Source of the DNA: Nitzschia sp. pyKryTriq1
Taxonomy: Eukaryota > Bacillariophyta > Bacillariophyceae > Bacillariales > Bacillariaceae
DNA length: 64,000 nt
Direction: 5' to 3'
Assembly: GCA_956465555.1 (NCBI GenBank)
Contig: OY101116.1
Location: 186,001-250,000 of the forward strand
How positions within the stretch are numbered: the first letter of the stretch is position 1; the number at the start of each line of letters is the position of its first letter. The position numbers and the translations under genes are program-made. The notes below the pieces were generated by a model. It saw nothing but the letters and a program-made list of their open reading frames with translations, was not told the origin of the DNA and made no database searches. Of the stretch, positions 32,539 through 44,355 are shown in pieces.

Positions 32539-34635
32539 ATGAACTTCCTTTCACTAATGCAAGAGGAAGCCATGCCACCGGCGCAATTCTTTCCTAAGGA
32601 GCGAGGAACCTCCCGAGCAGGAATACCTGATGATTCCGATGATTCTGATGAGGAGTCTCCTGATCTGCTTGAGAGAAGTGTTTCTTCCTTTTCAAATGAA
32701 AGCCACGAGAAGGGTCGTGCTCTTGATCTACATGATCAGTCGCCTATTCGCGGGTACCCGACCCCGCCACCTCCCGACATTGAAAGCCTGGCGCTCGATG
32801 ACGTCGATCAGTTGTTGGCAGAAGAGATGACCAGGCTGTCTTTAGCAGAACGGGAGAAGGTGCTGGAGGATTTACATGCCATCGCTGACCAGCGTTCCGA
32901 TGAGCCATCACCCGAGATGCGAGCACAGCGGCTGATGGAATTTCAAGAGGCTCTGGAGTCCTCTCATATGATACCGCCGATCCAAAAAGGCGCCTACGAT
33001 CTGGCATGTCGCATCGATGCTTCCTACGTTCAGAACGAACGCCTTCGCGTAATGTTTCTGAGGGCCGACTATTGGGATCCCTGCAAGGCAGCACTCCGTT
33101 TCACAAAACATTTTGAATTCAAGCTGGATCTGTTTGGCCAGGATTTGCTTTGCCGTGAAATTACTCAAGATGACCTGGATCCGGGTACTCTGGAGGTTTT
33201 GTATAGTGACTTGGTTCAGGAGCTGCCTCTTCGGGATAGGGCTGGAAGGCTTGTGAGCATTATGATGCCCGATCCGAATAATGGAACTATTCTTCAAAAG
33301 GTATGAACAAGTAATAGTTCTCCCCGAACTCCTATCTGCTGATATCTCATCTTATTGCTTGCACAATTTTTGAATTGTATCATATCCACGATCAGAAACG
33401 ACGGATATTTTATGCCAACATGGTGAAGATTCAGGACGAAGAGACGCAAATTAAGGGACTGGTTCGAATTGTATGGGTTGCCAATGTTGGGATGGACCGT
33501 GCCGCAGTTTGGGAGACAGCGAATTTGTTCGCTGCTTTGCCAACACGGCTGCCGGTCACCCACATTTGTATTCCGGATGGGAAACGACGAACCTTTATGA
33601 ACGGATCTGCATTATTGGCACTGTCTTTCTATGCATTAGAGTCTTTGACGCGAATACGAATCAAGTCTCATTTTGGTAAGATTCGCTTGTTCACCACCTA
33701 ACTGATGTATACTACTTACGATGCCACTTATCGAACGAATTTTTCTCACTTTTCAATTTTCATCACTTGCATTCATGGTAATCATCAGGCACTCCAACTG
33801 AATTAAAAAAAGAGCTCACAACTTTTGGCATACCCTCTTTTCTCATGGACATATCCAAGGATGGCAAAGTCATTGTACCGCACGTCAACATGAAGTGGAG
33901 TGCTCGTCGTTTAGAAGAACGGAGCTTGTTGTGGAAGAAGCAAAATCTCTCGATACTACCACCACGAACACTCAGAATGGACCGTGATTTCCCACCAGAT
34001 TTGCACCCTATGAACAGTTTCGTGAGCACCCAGAGGACTTCTGGCCTCGGTGATTTTGGACTTTCAACCAGCTCAGATGATGATTCTCTTCTTTCTGCGG
34101 CTATTCCTTCCAAACAAGTCAACCCAATTACTTCGACGACACCACAGCACCATCGAGAAGATCTGATTTTGTCGATGTCTTCGAGATTGGTCGCAACCAT
34201 ACCTAGCAATGAAGATGTATTGCTGGGCCGCGGTCGCGTGTTACAACGTCACGTGGTACGTACATACGATGTGGAATTGCTCCTCGCCTATTACCTGTGC
34301 GACAGGATACAATTATTTCTTACCGCCATGCTGCTCATTATACCCGTTTGTCCATTCCTTTTCTCCACCATAATGTTACATCATAGGGAAACATCCATTT
34401 TCGCGAGCTCATTGACACTCGGCAGTCAGTTTATGATGCTGCCTCCAAAACGGAAAAGACCGCCATGGCTGTTGATCTTGTTCGATTAGTAAAGACACGC
34501 TATCATGGTCGATTCTTGAAGGAAATGGGATCCGGCTGGATAGAAATACCGGACATCCTTGCCCGGAAGAAAGTTGCCGATTGCTTTCGTACTACACGGC
34601 ATCGAAAGAAGCAGCGAGCCAAGAATGAAACTTGA
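32539..34635 (+). CDS. CRAL-TRIO-like protein with C-terminal GRG/QRH domain (DUF6824-like)
   Basis: Four exons, 32539..33300, 33396..33675, 33789..34255 and 34387..34635, 585 aa. Residues about 110-400 fit a Sec14/CRAL-TRIO lipid-binding fold as seen in a large diatom family: ERLRVMFLRADYWDPCKAA, KLDLFGQDLLC, LPLRDRAGRLV, ..GLVRIVWVANVG.., THICIPDGKRR and, after the third splice, GTPTELKKELTTFGIP. The C-terminal domain (about 490-585) has DVLLGRGRVLQRHV, then across the last intron GNIHFRELIDTRQSVYDAA, KTEKTAMAVDLVRLV, GRFLKEMGSGWIEIP and a basic KKVADCFRTTRHRKKQ end. I know this as DUF6824 (name from memory). Function unknown; lipid sensing plus an unknown C-terminal role is an inference. 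Its 3' part is duplicated in inverted orientation downstream. Confidence 0.8.
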
Positions 34636-35000
34636 TGACTTGCTTCGCTGACGCTAATGATATTTTCTCGTAATGCTCAAGTAATTTCCATGCCGATGAT
34701 GCCATTGTTAGTAGACAAACTCTACCAGTACGAGTGGATGACATCGCAGTGCGAGTGAACGACGAGTATCAATACTTGTTTCTCGTAGAGACAACCAAAT
34801 CAGCGTAAGATGGTTTTGCCGCCACTGCCGGTTGCATCAGCAGTTTATTGGAATCATCATTGTCCACCATTCCGCGTCGTCCGCACCTGCTTTTTGCTTG
34901 CTGGAATGATAGTATCGTAGTACTTCAGCTTTCCCAGCAGTCTCGAAAGTATGATGGTGGTGCGCAGAGAGCGAGCAAGGCATGCAAATATGTTCGTAGT
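34205..35000 (+). repeat. Left arm of an inverted duplication
   Basis: From within exon 3 (about 34205), through the last intron and last exon, to about 34642, nearly identical to the reverse complement of about 35710-35287. After a gap of some 290 bp the match resumes at 34938-35000 (paired with about 35275-35204). The paired introns (131 and 121 bp) and paired last exons (249 and 246 bp) differ by a few substitutions and small indels. Confidence 0.9.
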
Positions 35001-35291
35001 ATGCTGGTAGCACACAGAGCCTCGGCCTCCTCCTCGGTCGACCCGCGTCACTGATGACGACGACTCACTCACTTTTTACTACTTGACATTCTTTTGTTGA
35101 CCATGATGGATCATAGTACATCCCTTCCTACAACTAGTACCAGTACTACTCACTAACTAACTCACTGATTTATCGCGTTAGGCTCAACGGTTTCGCCGGA
35201 GTCGTCTACGAACGTATTTGCATGCCTTCTTGCTCGCTCTCTGCGCACCATCATCATACTGTCGAGACTCTTGGGGAATGATTCGAAGTCA
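34636..35291. other. Loop of the inverted duplication
   Basis: Non-coding DNA between the two converging stop codons. Holds the resumed inverted match described for the arms; the central part (about 35001-35203) is unique and includes GTACT/CTAGTA palindromic words. Confidence 0.6.
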
Positions 35292-35710
35292 TCAAGTTTC
35301 ATTGGCTCGCTTTCTCTTTCGATGCCGTGTAGTACGAAAGCAACCGGCAACTGTCTTCCGGGCAAGGGTGTCCGGTATTTCTATCCAGCCGGATCCCATT
35401 TCCTTCAAGAATCGACCATGATAGCGTGTCTTTACTAATCGAACAAGATCAACAGCCATGGCGGTCTTTTCCGTTTTGGAGGCAGCATCATAAACTGACT
35501 GCCGAGTGTCAATGAGCTCGCGAAAATGGATGTTTCCCTATGATGTAATATTATGGTAGAGAAAAGAAATGGACAAACGGGTATAATGAGCAGCATGGCG
35601 GTAAGAAATAAGTGTATCCTGTATAGGCGAGGAGCAATTCCACATCGTATGTACGTACCACGTGACGTTGTAACACGCGACCGCGGCCCAGCAATACATC
35701 TTCATTGCAA
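35204..35710 (-). repeat. Right arm of an inverted duplication
   Basis: Reverse-complement counterpart of 34205-35000, including an intact splice donor (GTACGT at 35658-35653), acceptor (AG at 35539-35538) and the last exon. It lacks about 290 bp found 3' of the stop codon in the left arm. Confidence 0.9.
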
Positions 35711-38700
35711 GGTGTGGTTGCTGGAACTCTCGAAGAGGTCGGCAGTGGCGGATCTTCTTCTACTTGGTGCTGCTGTGTACGTACTGGTACCACATGACGT
35801 TGTAACTCGCGACCGCCTCCCTGTAATACATCACCATTGCTAGGTGGTGTGGTTGCTGGAACTCTCGAAGACGTCGGCAGTGGCGGATCTTCTTCTACTT
35901 GGTGCTGCTGTGCACGTACTGGTACCACATGATGTTGTAACTCGCGACCGCGGCCCTGTATTACATCACCATTGCTAGGTGGTGTGTTTGGTACAACTCG
36001 CGAAGAGGTCGGCAGTGGCGGATCTTCTTCTACTTGGTGCTGCTGTGGACGTACTAGTACCACATGACGTTGTAACTCGCGACCGCGGCCCTGTATTACA
36101 TCACCATTGCTAGGTGGTGTGTTTGGTACAACTCTCGAAGAGGTCGGCAGTGGCGGATCTTCTTCTACTTGGTGCTGCTGTGTACGTACTGGTACCACAT
36201 GACGTTGTAACTCGCGACCGCGGCCCTGTATTACATCACCATCGCTAGGTGGTGTGTCTGGTACAACTCTCGAAGAGGTAGGCAGTGGCGGATCTTCTTC
36301 TACTTGGTGCTGCTGTGAACGTACTGGTACCACATGACGTTGTAACTCGCGACCGCGGCCCTGTAATACATCACCATCGCTAGGTGGCGTGTCTGGTACA
36401 ACTCTCGAAGAGGTCGGCAGTGGCGGATCTTCTTCTACTTGGTGCTGCTGTGGACGTACTAGTACCACATGACGTTGTAACTTACGACCGCGGCCCTGTA
36501 ATACATCACCATTGCTAGGTGGTGTGTTTGGTACAACTCTCGAAGAGGTCGGCAGTGGCGGATCTTCTTCTGCTTGGTGCTGCTGTGGACGTACCGGTGC
36601 CACATGATGCTGAAACTTTCGACCGAGGTCCTGCAATACATCTGCATTGCCAGGTGGTGCGCTCGCTGCAAATCTCGAAGACATCCTCGACCGCAGCAGA
36701 TTGTCTACTTGTTGCTGCTGTAGATTTTCCAAAACTTGGTGCTGCTGTGAACATATCGACAGCAGAAGATTGTCTACTTGCTGTTGCTGTGTACGTACCG
36801 GTATTACATGACGTTGTAAACCGCGACCAAGGCCCAGCATTGCAGCATCTGCATTGCCAGTTGGTGCGCTTGCTGCAAATCTCGAAGACATCCTCGACTG
36901 CAGCAGATTGTCTACTTGCTGTTGCTGTGTACGTACCGGTACCACATGACGTTGTAAACCGCGACCAAGGCCCAGCATCACAGCATCTGCATTGCCAGGT
37001 GGTGCGCTTGCTGAAAATCTCGACGACATCATCCTCGACTGCAGCAGATTGTCTTCTTGCTGTTGCTGTGTACCTACCGTTACCACATGACGTTGTAAAC
37101 CGCGACCAAGGCCCAGCATTGCAGCATCTGCATTGCCAGGTGGTGCGCTTGCTGCAAATCTCGAAGACATCATCCTCGACTGCAGCAGATTGTCTACTTG
37201 CTGATGCTGTGTACCTACCGGTACCACATAACGTTGTAAACCGCGACCAAGGCCCACCATTGCAGCATCTGCATTGCCAGGTGGTGCGCTTGCTGAAAAT
37301 CTCGACGACATCATCCTCGACTGCAGCAGATTGTCTTCTTGCTGTTGCTGTGTACCTACCGGTACCACATGACGTTGTAAACCGCGACCAAGGCCCACCA
37401 TTGCAGCATCTGCACTGCCAGGTAGTGCGCTTGCTGAAAATCGCGAAGACATCATCGACTGCAGCAGATTGTCTACTTGCTGTTGCTGTGTACCTACCGG
37501 TACCACATGGCGTTGTAAACCGCGACCAAGGCCCAGTAATACTCCATCTTCATGGCTAGGTGATGTGGTTGCTCCAAATCTCGATGATATCCTCGACAAC
37601 TTGTGCAGATCTTCATCTTCTTGTTGGTGCTGTGTTGTCGTCGTCGAAGCAATTGGGCCTTCTTGTTGGTGCTGTGTTGTCGTCGTCGAAGAAGTTGGGT
37701 CTTCCTCTTCTTGTTGGTGCTGTGGTGTCGTCGTCGTGGAAGAAATTGGTGGGTCTTCTTCGTGTTGGTGCTGTGTTGTCGTCGTCGAAGAAGTTGGGTC
37801 TTCCTCTTCTTGTTGGTGCTGTGGTGTCGTCGTCGTTGAAGAAATTGGTGGGTCTTCTTCTTGTTGGTGCTGTGTTGTCGTCCTCGAAGAAGTTGGGTCT
37901 TCCTCTTCTTGTTGGTGCTGTGGTGTCGTCGTCGTTGAAGAAATTGGTGGGTCTTCTTCTTGTTGGTGCTGTGTTGTCGTCCTCGAAGAAGTTGGTTCTT
38001 CCTCTTCTTGTTGGTGCTGTGGTGTCGTCGTCGTTGAAGAATTTGGTGGGTCTTCTTCTTGTTGGTGCTGTGTTGTCGTCCTCGAAGAAGTTGGTTCTTC
38101 CTCTTCTTGTTGGTGCTGCGGTGTCGTTGTCGTCGTCGTTGGAGAAATTGGTGGGTCTTCTTCTTGTTGGTGCTGTGGTGTCGTCGTCGAAGACGTTGTT
38201 ATTTCTTCTTGTTGGTGCTGCGGTGTCGTTGTCGTCGTCGTTGAAGAAATTGGTGGGTCTTCCTCTTCTTGTTGGTGCTGTGTAGTCGTCGTCGTTGAAG
38301 AAATTGGCGGGTCATCTTCTTGTTGGTGCTGTGTTGTCGTCCTCGAAGAAGTTGGTTCTTCCTCTTCTTGTTGGTGCTGCGGTGTCGTTGTCGTCGTCGT
38401 TGGAGAAATTGGTGGGTCTTCTTCTTGTTGGTGCTGTGGTGTCGTCGTCGAAGACGTTGTTATTTCTTCTTGTTGGTGCTGCGGTGTCGTTGTCGTCGTC
38501 GTTGAAGAAATTGGTGGGTCTTCCTCTTCTTGTTGGTGCTGTGTAGTCGTCGTCGTTGAAGAAATTGGCGGGTCATCTTCTTGTTGGTGCTGTGGTTTCG
38601 TCGAAGAAGTTGGTGGGTCTTCTTCTTGTTTGGAAGGATTAGCCACAGGAGCAAGGGAATGATCGTCATCATCACCATCACCATCACCATCACCACCATC

Positions 38701-39062
38701 ATCATCATCATCATCTGGTGCTGAGCGGGATCTTCTTGCAGGTCCAAAGTCATCACTCAGAGGACATGATCGCTGCTCGTCCATTGTGGTGGAGTTTGTA
38801 GTAGATGACGATGGTAGCGTTAGATCATCCTTTGCGGCCAGGTAGAGAAGGCCCAATGGAAAGAGGAGATATGGCGAGTAGACGGCCGTGGTCATGGCAA
38901 TTTGGAGAGGAGTCATCGTCATCGCAAGTTCCGAGGAGGGGGAGCAGGAGGAGGAGGACGACGACGACGTCCAAAAGGTAGCCAAAATGGGAATCATCGT
39001 AGTCGATACATGCGACCCATAGATGATACACAGTGTTTGGAACCATCGAGGATAATGCCGAA

Positions 39063-39093
<31 letters not shown>

Positions 39094-39435
39094 AGCACGA
39101 GCATCGGCATCATCATCATCAGCAGCAGCAGCCTCGCTGATGTAGGAGTAGTAGTAGTCGTTCTGCTTTGACGTCATGACCAACAGGGCCACGACGAAAA
39201 ATGCGAGTTGGAAACACACCTCTCCCAGCACAAGCGCTTGAAACCACGGTGGACTGCTGGGATATCGCATCAAAACATCTCCAAATAAATCGCAATACCA
39301 CTCGACCAAATCTCGTAACGGTTGTGGATACCACGTTGAAAAGGCACCTTGAGCATCGATCAGCAGCGTAATGGGAATGTGCGATGCGAAAAAGATCAAG
39401 TACGCATCCTTGATGGCACCAGTAAGAACTCTCAT
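35292..39435 (-). CDS. Chimeric TMEM97/EXPERA-like membrane protein with repeat array and DUF6824-like tail
   Basis: Two exons, 39435..35659 and 35537..35292, 1340 aa. Residues 1-207 match the four-helix EXPERA fold of TMEM97 (sigma-2 receptor, sterol-related ER protein): FFASHIPITLLIDAQG, WYPQPLRDLVEWY, PPWFQALVLGEVCFQLAFF, LCIIYGSHVSTTMIPIL, VYSPYLLFPLGLLYL. An Asp/Ala run interrupts the second loop. An acidic linker (about 208-270) leads to Thr/Gln/Glu repeats (TPQHQQEEEDP type, about 275-605). Next come about 14 copies of a GRG..LQRHVV unit, 45-50 residues each; the last has the neighbour's exact form DVLLGRGRVLQRHV and is spliced to a complete DUF6824-like tail (GNIHFRELIDTRQS...). The tail exon is about 95% identical to the adjacent gene. 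Seen: fusion, phase and intact splice sites. Inferred: recent origin by inverted duplication, and expression. Confidence 0.75.
35720..36640. repeat. 135-bp tandem repeat array (coding)
   Basis: About seven units of 135 bp (45 codons) recognisable by the recurring CATGACGTTGTAACTCGCGA word on the plus strand at spacing 135 (near 35792, 35927, 36062, 36197, 36332, 36467, 36602). Each encodes a GRG..LQRHVV motif and a VEEDPPLPTSSRV spacer on the minus strand. Confidence 0.95.
36641..37560. repeat. Diverged tandem repeats (coding), GLGRGLQRHVV type
   Basis: Six older units of about 135-140 bp that share the LQRHVV core but have a VGTQQQQVDNLLQSR spacer. One unit contains an additional internal duplication (about 36680-36790). 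Confidence 0.9.
37609..38635. repeat. Short Thr/Gln/Glu coding repeats with a 261-bp higher-order duplication
   Basis: More than 15 units of about 42-60 bp built on CTTGTTGGTGCTG (plus strand). A 261-bp block is repeated almost perfectly: a GTGCTGCGGTGTCGTTGTCG word occurs with 261-bp spacing near 38112 and 38373, marking a recent duplication inside the array. Confidence 0.93.
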
Positions 39436-40242: not shown

Positions 40243-40541
40243 ATGGTGAAAAGGTCGTTGTTCCGCCTGCTCTATTACTTCTCATTGTTCTTTGTTTATT
40301 TCGTCGGACCGTCCCATTCATTTCTTATTCTTTTGACGACTCCAACGACTTCGACTTTGTCGCAAACAAGGCACAAAAGGGCGCCGCCGACGACGACGAC
40401 GACCACCACGACGACCGCGACGGCGACCACAGCAATAAAATATCAACTACAGCAGCGTCCGCGTCCACGGCAACGTCATCAAGTTCCAGTTCCAGTTCCA
40501 GTTCCAGTTCGAATGTTGATGGCCATGCAAGACGACGACTC

Positions 40542-40575
<34 letters not shown>

Positions 40576-40885
40576 GACGACGACTCGAAGAGGAATAACA
40601 ATGTTAGTAGTACCTCCTCCTCGTCGCCTCAATTTTGGATGCCTCGACAGGCACCTATGGAAGGCTTTCGAAGTAGAGACAACAGCAGCAGAGATAGCAG
40701 AGACAGCAGAGACAGCAGCAGCCGTAGTAGTCTCGATTCCTTGTTGGATACCATTGTCGAATTACAGTCCCAAAAGTCGAATTCCATTCGAATCATCCAA
40801 GACTCTCAAATTCCCAAGGATCTATCGACGCGGCACATTAATTCGATCGTCTTTACCCTCAACCTACCACCACCACCACCACCAC

Positions 40886-40923
<38 letters not shown>

Positions 40924-42245
40924 CCTTCCATCCAACCACAACCGCCACCACCATTTATATTGGCCATTCTCGATCAGCAAGATCGGGTCAATGTGACCAA
41001 GTTGGAACAAGTCGTTGTAGAATTATCATCATCTGCATACTCATCTGCATACTCTTCTTCATCATCATCTTCATTATCTTCCTTTTGGATCGATGGAGAT
41101 GAACGGCGCGATCTTTTGACCTTGGCACCGATGGATCAATTGGTTCATATTTGTGGCTTTGCGGCGGGGACGATACCTCCGATTATCGGATTGATGTTGA
41201 CGACAAACCGTCATCCACCACTCTTGACTATTGTGGAACAATCGTTGTTGTCGTCGTTGTTGTTGCCGGTCGATGATGAGCATGATGATGATGATGATCC
41301 TCCTCCTCTAAAATCTTCATCTCTATCACCACCATCATCATTGATATTGAGGGGTGGGGGTGGTAGACTCAATCAATCGATTCTACTTTCGATACAAACG
41401 CTTCTAGGAGACAGCAGCAGTAACAGCAACAGCAACAGCAACAGTAACAGCAGCAACCATCATCATCGTATTCATGTTGCGTCCTTTCGACAACAGCCAC
41501 AGCATCAGCGGGGAAATGCCGTTGGTGGTAAATCCTCCTCCTACTACTCGTGGTCTTCGTCATCATACCGAAAAGCAACAAGGAATGATGGAGAAGGGGA
41601 ACGGTATCAAAAACCCTATTTTTGCGTGGCTCCGCCTGACAAAAAACTTGCCATGGAAATTATAAACAGTGGTGACGACGAAAACAAAGACGGGAGAAGT
41701 ATTACATCATCATCAACATCAACAACAACAACAACACCACTACCACCGCTACCCAAACCAGAATGGGTAGCCGTCGTCGGTCGCATCTCGGGGGTTCGAC
41801 AAATGGCACGGCGACTTGTCTTTTGTGATTTGGCACCTCCCTTGCTTTCTTCTACTACTGGTGATAATGCTGCTGATGATGATGATGATCTTCATCCTTG
41901 GAGATCCCCAGATCATGGTGGTGGTCAAGACATGGCAGTGCAACTGATTTTGGGCAAGACGCTTTGTCAACAAGTGGGAGTCGAAAAGGGAGAAATGATC
42001 ATGCGACGCCTGCTCAAAGTAGGACAGCTGGTAATGGTACAAGGAAAGACGAATGTTGGGAATCGGAATAGTCTCAAGAACTGGGTCAGCAAGACCAGTT
42101 TGGACATTGTCGTATTTGACATTCAGACATTGCACACAGAAGAAGAATCCTCCAGCAGCAGAAGCAACGTTGGTTATTGGAGTAGTACAAGTGCTCCTAC
42201 TGCTATTACTGCTGCAAATAAGAATGGTGGAACATTTTCAGAATC

Positions 42246-42278
<33 letters not shown>

Positions 42279-44051
42279 GTCTCGAAATAAGAGGGCTGGG
42301 CTGCCGAACGAGGACAATGAAAATAACCTGCCTTTTCTCAAGCTTGAGGACATGTATCCCGAGACTACATTGGACGATTCTGTCGAAATCGTGGACGATC
42401 AAGCCGGGATTCAACGATTTCATATACAGCTCCAAGAATGGTTACGACTAGATGAGACCCATGATGGTGATGGTGATAATGATCCTGACCCTGGTCGGGT
42501 AGGTCTAGTGGGTATAGATTGCGAATGGAAGCCCAACTTTTTGGCAGGAGACGAATCGCAACCCGTCTTACTCCTACAAATTTGTCTACATGATCTCCAG
42601 CAGACGTATTTATTCGATTTGCAAGCACTGTTACGTCCGCTTTGTCCCAATAAGACGGAATCCATGACAAAGACAGAAGAGGCACTTGCCGATGCCATTT
42701 CCTTGCTGTACAAGACGAAACGACTCATCAAGGTGGGATTTCAAGTTCATAACGATTTGCAGCGATTGGCGGCCAGCTATCCACACATTCATTCGTTTAC
42801 GTACGTCAATTCCGTCCTCGAAATTTCCAAACTGGGAATGCAAACAATGCAAATGATGACTACGAAGAATACAGCCAAGCTGGAAGCACTACTTGGCGGC
42901 GGCGGGATGAGACGAGCACGAGTAGTCACTTCGTCTCTGATCAAAATGACGGAACGATTTGTGGAACGGACATTGAACAAGGAGCAACAGATCAGTGACT
43001 GGTCCGTCCGCCCCTTGAGCGCCGCTCAAATCGAGTATGCGGCTCTGGATGCCGTGGTCACGCCCTTTATTACCGAACGATTGTTATCGAGTGTCGGTGC
43101 CCGCTTCTTTTATAATCATGATGATGATGATCATCATCATGATCATGATCAGCAGCAGGAGATGATGATGATGATTCCAAGCTTGGGGCGTTATGAGGGC
43201 GATTCCGCCTTTACTGGATTCCTTTCAAGTTGGAGATTCATATTGTTACATGCCATGGAAGACCAAGTACCGATTCAACGTTGGAATGCCAAACGCCTGG
43301 TCGGCGATACGTTTTTGGTACAACAATCTTGGACGACGGGAGAATCAGAACCTCAACTACCTACGAGACCGACGGGACTCAAAGAAGAGATGGATGCACC
43401 CTTTGTCGATCTCAATGGAATTTCCCGAATTCCGTCACATACAGTCTCGATTGACCGGCTCAAGATCGATTCGATTCTAGGAACCTGGATGACGAAATCC
43501 AAAGAACGATGTGTCATGGAACTCGTCAATGCCGCCAGGACAGACCATGCTGACGACCTGGAACAAGAACAAGAAGAGCAAGGAGAACGACTACTACCTA
43601 GTACTACCAGCAGGAGCAGCAGCAGCACCAAATTAGATTTTCAGGCTCGATCAGGCTATATCGAAATGGAAAATGCCGTTGTGTTATTTGTGACCCTTCC
43701 CGCCAACAACAATAATCGAAAAGGTGGTGGTGGTGGTGGTGGTGGTCTATCGCGTAGCTATCCCAACGAATGGCTTGAAGATGGATCCATCTTGACATGG
43801 TTTATCAAAGAGTACGAGTGGAAAGGTGGTACGACACGATTGGCCCAGAAAATGATGATGATGATGTCCGACGACGAGGAGGATGAGATCAACAACGACA
43901 ACAACAACAACAACGACGACGACGACAATAACAAGAAGCAGAAAAAGAACGATGTGATTTTGTTTGTACGACGCGGCAAGGGCATCTTTTTTTGTTGTGG
44001 ACGATGTCGTGTCGTCACCTTGAGTGATTTTGACAACAAGAAGAAGATGAA

Positions 44052-44091
<40 letters not shown>

Positions 44092-44207
44092 GAAAGAGGA
44101 GAGCTTCTTGGTCGAGATTCTGACCAATGGAACATTCATAAACTCTTTCTTCTTCTCACCGACTTTGGGCGTCTCCAAGAAAATGACGACTTTTTGGATT
44201 TGGTCAA

Positions 44208-44240
<33 letters not shown>

Positions 44241-44355
44241 GCGGCGAACACGACCAATCACCAAAAGTACTATTACCGGTACTAGACGAGGAGGAGGAGG
44301 ACGACGAGACGACGATGAGGATGCGCAAGACCAACAAGAAGAAGTTTACTACTAA
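40243..44355 (+). CDS. Multidomain YbaK-like / OB-fold / DEDDy 3'-5' exonuclease protein, plastid-type leader
   Basis: Single exon, 1370 aa. The leader (MVKRSLFRLLYYFSLFFVYF, then SHSF) is a signal peptide followed by Phe, the diatom plastid import pattern. Residues about 165-390 resemble YbaK/aminoacyl-tRNA deacylases: HINSIVFTL, a VNVTKLEQVV helix, LVHICGFAAGTIPPIIGL and ILRGGGGRLNQSI. About 505-632 is a probable OB fold (WVAVVGRISGVRQMARRLVFCDL ... LVMVQGKTNV). About 750-945 is an RNase D-like exonuclease with complete DEDDy residues: D759/E761 (IDCEWKP), D838 (VHNDLQRL), Y932 and D936 (YAALDA). The C-terminal part (about 1169-1320) has SYPNEWLEDGSILTWF and FVRRGKGIFFCCGR, a module I cannot name. 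Poly-Gln, Asn, Ser, Pro and Asp runs separate the modules. tRNA or RNA quality control is an inference. Confidence 0.8.

Follow-up and report, generated by a model that had tools for sequence, protein, structure and literature searches.

How did the gene for a sterol-type membrane protein come to end in part of its neighbour, intron included, and is the acquired part of any use to the protein? The question is raised by two convergent genes of the diatom Nitzschia sp. pyKryTriq1 (assembly GCA_956465555.1, contig OY101116.1, positions 186,001 to 250,000). This stretch of 64,000 nucleotides (nt) is our window, and positions are counted from its first letter. Gene A, on the plus strand, and gene B, on the minus strand, were identified as follows.

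32539..34635, plus strand: gene A, the predicted donor; a lipid-binding part of CRAL-TRIO type followed by a C-terminal DUF6824 domain, 585 amino acids, four exons, spliced frame
35292..39435, minus strand: gene B; EXPERA/TMEM97 domain, array tail and DUF6824, 1340 amino acids, two exons, no internal stop in the spliced frame

The frame that opens with the TMEM97 domain of gene B runs on through the linker of gene A into gene A's DUF6824 exon, with the original intron still in place. We estimate at roughly two in three the probability that gene B is a chimeric gene of this origin, as predicted from its sequence. The history that we propose has three steps, whose order we infer. An inverted transfer would have carried the 3' part of gene A onto the 3' end of the convergent TMEM97 gene; the transferred portion of the exon would then have been amplified into a 3-kilobase (kb) array; and gene conversion may later have made the two arms alike again from the end of exon 3 through the intron and over most of exon 4. 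The product would be a four-helix TMEM97 protein of the endoplasmic reticulum (ER) type that keeps its sterol-related job. Its cytosolic low-complexity tail of about 1100 residues, with DUF6824 at the end, is probably tolerated rather than used, because a constant lysine has been lost and the array codons are without measurable constraint. Conversion and a passive tail are inferred on top of the core of this proposal, and the rival accounts of each are compatible with that core.

An inverted copy with its intron

The following features define the copy.

34076..34999, plus strand: span of gene A present again, inverted, in gene B (exon 3 end, last intron, exon 4 and pieces of the 3' flank), from alignments
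34642..34929, plus strand: 288 nt of the gene A 3' flank without counterpart in gene B, which has 7 nt there; a deletion in B or an insertion in A
35000..35205, no strand: spacer of 206 nt between the inverted arms, from the limits of the arm matches
35292..35537, minus strand: last exon of gene B, encoding the second half of DUF6824, with threonine where the sampled copies have a constant lysine
35538..35658, minus strand: intron of gene B inside DUF6824, 121 nt, a copy of the last intron of gene A (34256-34386)
38592..38667, minus strand: 5' edge of the A-derived sequence in gene B, matching 34076-34145 (score 54, 0 of 1000 shuffles)

The initial annotation had claimed that the 3' end of gene A is present again, in reverse, in gene B, with frame and splice phase kept in both copies, and the alignments bear out both points. 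Gene A 34139-34641 is the reverse complement of 35778-35286 in 462 of 506 columns (91%), and its 3' flank, 34930-34999, agrees with 35278-35206 in 64 of 73. Gene A has exons at 32539-33300, 33396-33675, 33789-34255 and 34387-34635 (plus strand), and gene B at 39435-35659 and 35537-35292, around the intron 35658-35538 (minus strand). The last introns of the two genes (131 nt in A, 121 nt in B) are both GT-AG, in phase 0 and within DUF6824, and in both the junction falls between QRHV and GNIHF. The spliced protein of gene B has a DUF6824 match of 72.3 bits over profile positions 1-83 of 84, well over the curated Pfam cut-off of 27 bits for the family (PF20710), so that the DUF6824 tail reported earlier is confirmed.

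The limits first drawn around the copy were too tight. Further upstream in gene A, 34076-34145 matches 38667-38592 with a score of 54; the best of 826 other windows used as controls reached 33, and none of 1000 shuffles reached 54. The copied piece thus took in a longer stretch of exon 3, beginning at 34076 or earlier, with homology reaching 34076 in one arm and 38667 in the other. Upstream beyond 38667 homology is not significant: 13 of 1000 shuffled sequences scored as high, and so did 3 of 648 windows.

Gene A as the donor

Gene A has a paralogue, A' (locus L069, C2:170957-172993), at a distance of about 46 kb on its own contig and in the opposite orientation. A' has the four-exon plan of gene A and the identical intron site inside DUF6824. 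The two genes also share a near-identical tract at 32932-33171 (4 of 240 sites differ) within an otherwise more diverged exon 1; this looks like gene conversion over 46 kb, judged from the pattern of differences. Synonymous divergence (dS) between A and A' is 0.17 in exon 1 and 0.86 in exon 2.

The DUF6824 domain of gene A scores 72.8 bits (amino acids 490-571, Pfam). The first part of gene A is not named by Pfam as CRAL-TRIO; in three of seven family members Pfam does name CRAL_TRIO_N, gene A apparently not among the three. A profile built from the seven members matches retinaldehyde-binding protein (RLBP1, E=1.5e-16) and tocopherol transfer protein (E about 2e-10), and the CRAL-TRIO-like assignment given to gene A at the outset is therefore right.

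The genome has eight silicon-transporter places over the cut-off of that family, in keeping with a diatom. Throughout the genome (40.65 Mb in 20 contigs), matches to the CRAL-TRIO part fall into 102 pieces, which we grouped into 85 loci. A DUF6824 place lies within 2 kb downstream of the CRAL-TRIO part in 55 of the 85, and upstream of it in four. Gene A is itself one of 30 CRAL-TRIO loci for which no DUF6824 place is listed downstream, its intron-split domain having missed the list. The order CRAL-TRIO before DUF6824 is present in gene A and not in gene B, where EXPERA stands in its stead. Because A' has the exon plan of gene A and the family keeps CRAL-TRIO before DUF6824, gene A is, by these comparisons, the donor, as the first reading of the locus had supposed. 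Gene B was considered as the donor and is ruled out by the same exon plan and domain order.

In this diatom the DUF6824 family is very large: the census gave 237 candidates, of which 150 were scored, and the family thus has at least 150 places. A CRAL-TRIO part lies upstream in 56 of the 150 scored places, and 94 have no match to the first part of gene A within 2 kb upstream. When 10 of 12 located open frames of other DUF6824 proteins were scanned, Pfam named no partner domain in any of the 10 at E up to 0.01. A profile of 14 DUF6824 domains matched no solved structure at E up to 1, and a single domain matched only a designed protein (E=0.21). An AlphaFold prediction of the fold from a two-row alignment had a mean predicted local distance difference test score (pLDDT) of 54. 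Our literature search found nothing on DUF6824. Elsewhere in the genome, G000:C1:4352064-4360000 and G000:C3:3217001-3224937 (L077 and L078), on two contigs, are 99.6% identical over 7940 aligned columns; this recent duplication includes CRAL-TRIO-like matches and reaches an end of each compared stretch, so its borders are approximate.

The membrane part of gene B

38803..39435, minus strand: EXPERA/TMEM97 membrane domain (end approximate); Pfam 45.4 bits, PDB 7m93 E=1.3e-18, low-complexity insert between the matched halves

The TMEM97-type domain of the initial annotation is well founded. The EXPERA match comes in two stretches with 45.4 bits, over the curated cut-off of 25.7 bits (PF05241), and the sole solved relative at E up to 0.1 is the sigma-2 receptor TMEM97 (7m93, E=1.3e-18). 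Trinucleotide runs at 39052-39138 (minus strand) encode an acidic and alanine-rich low-complexity insert between the EXPERA halves. D56 is given as the most conserved EXPERA position in PMC4263179. In our alignment FGDVLM of gene B lies against FKDPLL of 7m93, and we read the acid of FGD as the probable equivalent of D56. As regards the putative lysine-rich signal for ER retention at the C-terminus of TMEM97, gene B has KDDLTLP behind its membrane part; the true C-terminus, RHRKRKRANET, is basic and has no lysine in its last four residues.

The family search at E up to 0.001 gave this EXPERA place and no other in the genome. The gene B protein, searched against the genome, has besides its own gene a single weak match, which contains two stops (E=0.19). 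The TMEM97-type gene is thus, from these searches, apparently single-copy here. No close relatives of its TMEM97 part were found in viral contigs.

A repeat array grown from the transferred exon

Between the A-derived edges gene B carries an array of about 3 kb in three zones of tandem repeats.

37625..38650, minus strand: zone 1; units of 14-20 codons, QHQQEEDPP(I)SSTTTTP, family D1
36748..37593, minus strand: zone 2; units mostly of 46-47 codons with the first half of DUF6824 (LGRGLQRHVV), family D3
35659..36591, minus strand: zone 3; units of 45 codons with the first half of DUF6824 (GRGRELQRHVV), the last unit chimeric, family D2

The repeat is not a separate linker: the units of zones 2 and 3 (135/141 nt) align with gene A from its linker through the first half of DUF6824 and on across the exon-intron border. 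The array is, on this alignment, an expanded part of the transferred exon. Zone 1 holds no half-domain; its position and a motif of the TTPQH type suggest that it too came from that exon. Its 15 spacings are of 48, 51 or 54 nt, every one a multiple of three. The interval 35000-38000, used as a query against the genome, gave six matches, all inside its own locus (the search skips simple repeats).

All 14 half-domain heads, 13 in the array and the true one, are followed in phase by GTA[C/G]GT, which in the array copies stands two codons further on. Ten of the 13 array heads read LQRHV as in gene A, the others read LQRYV, FQHHV and LQHHV, and none has the SQDHV of A'. Heads like those of A, and never like those of A', indicate that the copy left gene A after A and A' had split, or that it was later converted by A.

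Age of the copy and possible gene conversion

High identity in the intron and exon 4 had been read as the sign of a recent event. The identity itself is there; a single recent origin is too simple an explanation, since the identity is a mosaic. Its pattern fits, we suggest, an older transfer followed by repeat growth and then gene conversion. Exon 4 as a whole has six differences in 246 sites between A and B and one codon gap, all within its last 80 nt. Over its first 168 nt there are none, in a stretch where dS between A and A' is 0.97. The intron has 4 differences in 121 sites and a 10-nt indel. The last array unit is divided. Gaps aside, comparison with gene A finds 18 differences in 69 sites in the left half and 0 in 50 in the right; comparison with the unit before it finds 3 in 73 on the left and 8 in 47 on the right. 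The left half is thus of array type and the right half of gene A type, a mosaic in keeping with gene conversion that came later than the array.

The alternative that survives best, though we judge it unlikely, is that the same chimeric gene arose in one recent event without conversion and that only the array has evolved fast, by slippage and unequal exchange. The absence of differences from the first 168 nt of exon 4, the low count in the intron and the confinement of the six exon 4 differences and the codon gap to the last 80 nt would all agree with it, and tandem arrays generally change fast. It does not account well for the 3' flank (64 of 73) or for the 5' edge, which lies beyond the regular array, both being more diverged than exon 4, nor for a switch point within the last array unit, and a comparable tract exists between A and A'. 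For other loci the lesson is one of caution, as high identity of inverted arms may mean gene conversion and not youth.

Does the transcript reach the copy?

A TMEM97 transcript that stops short of the array, by ending or by splicing, would leave the DUF6824 copy as mere downstream DNA; we hold this to be rather improbable. TMEM97 relatives usually stop shortly after the fourth helix, which speaks for such an end. Gene B, however, has 1259 codons from its ATG to the donor site without a stop, and its tail frame is free of stops over 3132 nt, where the other two minus-strand frames have 30 and 33. The donor motifs GTACGT, GTAAGT, GTATGT and GTGAGT are absent from 38745-36936, the span scanned; GTAGGT does occur from 37497 on, which tempers this argument against early splicing.

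The GTA[C/G]GT motif behind every head, which comes of a repeated unit that spans the exon-intron border, raises a further possibility: the array may offer a series of alternative splice donors, yielding predicted TMEM97 proteins with tails of graded length. Any array donor joined to the last exon would leave the frame intact and restore DUF6824 with two extra residues. We hold this to be quite improbable, as it needs introns of about 250 nt to nearly 2 kb and those of A, A' and B measure 95-131 nt; inheritance from gene A suffices to explain the donor motif in the array, without selection.

Inverted arms, a short spacer and a long array are typical sites of assembly failure, but a fold-back of one read, or a repeat collapsed or expanded, is very improbable, because substitutions, an intron indel of 10 nt and a block of 288 nt set the arms apart, and the array is confined to one arm with units that match gene A. 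A fold-back is rejected as the principal explanation on account of the arm differences and the one-sided array, although the array length itself could be wrong.

A tail of doubtful function

That the fusion has given gene B a working new domain we consider doubtful. Lysine (K80 of the gene A domain, close to its end) is present in A, in A' and in every one of 30 sampled DUF6824 loci, which were the top scorers among the 150, so that the sample leans to the consensus; gene B has threonine. The K80 column is invariant in a 14-row alignment of DUF6824 from which gene B was left out, and nine of nine further CRAL-TRIO-type frames, none of them among the 30, also have lysine at the site, by eye. 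The constancy of this lysine is a yardstick of our own, drawn from the copies in this genome. Two other columns of DUF6824 that differ between A and B vary among the copies; in one of these B has the residue of A' and gene A has a different one. No purifying selection on array codons was found: the ratio of nonsynonymous to synonymous differences per site (pN/pS) is 0.99 in zone 3 (six units) and 1.31 in zone 2 (three units). With the constant lysine replaced and the array codons free of purifying selection, the function of the tail is doubtful, and we call the DUF6824 of gene B a homologous copy, as its sequence indicates, and not a working member of the family.

Were the tail functional, gene B might tether DUF6824 and its binding partner to the ER membrane, the sterol-type part replacing the CRAL-TRIO part. 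This would suit a domain that is complete by profile (72.3 bits), a frame and splice phase that have been maintained, and two partner domains that are both lipid-related by family. We nevertheless find it hard to favour, given the replaced lysine and the unconstrained array; moreover, with no DUF6824 literature found and no solved relative, a role has no independent support.

Several observations weigh against the chimeric gene with a converted copy and a passive tail that we propose. In zone 3 pN/pS falls from 0.99 in the coding frame to 0.44 in one shifted frame, so the array offers no positive sign of coding constraint. Open frames are easily maintained where the period of an array is a multiple of three, and there are other long open frames within this one, such as one of 344 amino acids on the same strand. 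The longest identical run between A and B is by itself only modestly unusual (P about 0.025, if differences are assumed to be evenly spread), and the case for conversion accordingly leans mainly on the mosaic of the last unit. Finally, the DUF6824 score of gene B is on a level with that of gene A (72.3 against 72.8 bits), and the domain may therefore not have lost its function.

Beyond gene B, the window holds at 40243-44352 (plus strand) a gene with a 3'-5' exonuclease domain (PF01612, E=6.3e-13) in a frame of 1370 amino acids, with many homopolymer runs of Asn, Asp, Ser, Gly, Pro and Ala.

Comparison with known systems

The accessible parts of the literature on TMEM97 in diatoms contain no such fusion. 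Searches for chimeric genes of diatoms formed via inverted duplication found none, and broader searches gave nothing on point among the matches listed, PMC7335047 included as far as its text was available.

Gene B resembles TMEM97 (MAC30, the sigma-2 receptor; PF05241) in having both EXPERA halves, and the motifs HIPITLL(I/M)D, FxD and E...FQL align with 7m93. It differs from that protein in the insert between the halves, in the apparent lack of a lysine-rich end after the membrane part and in adding the tail of about 1100 residues that ends in DUF6824. With the CRAL-TRIO-DUF6824 genes, A and A', it has in common a matching phase-0 intron inside DUF6824 and a last exon near-identical to that of gene A; unlike them, it has EXPERA/TMEM97 in place of the lipid-binding part, a linker grown to about 1000 residues and threonine for the constant lysine.

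In exon shuffling, exon and intron are carried together into a new frame. Chimeric genes formed by partial (segmental) duplication are the closest parallel, as gene B joins part of a neighbour into a new frame, exon and intron together, and has two parental sources, one of them common to an intact neighbour, in one frame. It departs from them in that the copy is inverted, the genes are convergent, the array extends across the exon-intron border and the arms have probably been converted. If transcribed, it would be a fusion for which a single locus still shows the donor, the acceptor, the piece copied, its intron and the repeat growth that followed. It would also show how a family of domains as large as this one (at least 150 places in one diatom genome) can take over a sterol-type membrane gene, apparently present once, via an inverted copy between convergent neighbours. 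As predicted here, gene B is a new case of an already known process, with an unusual history.

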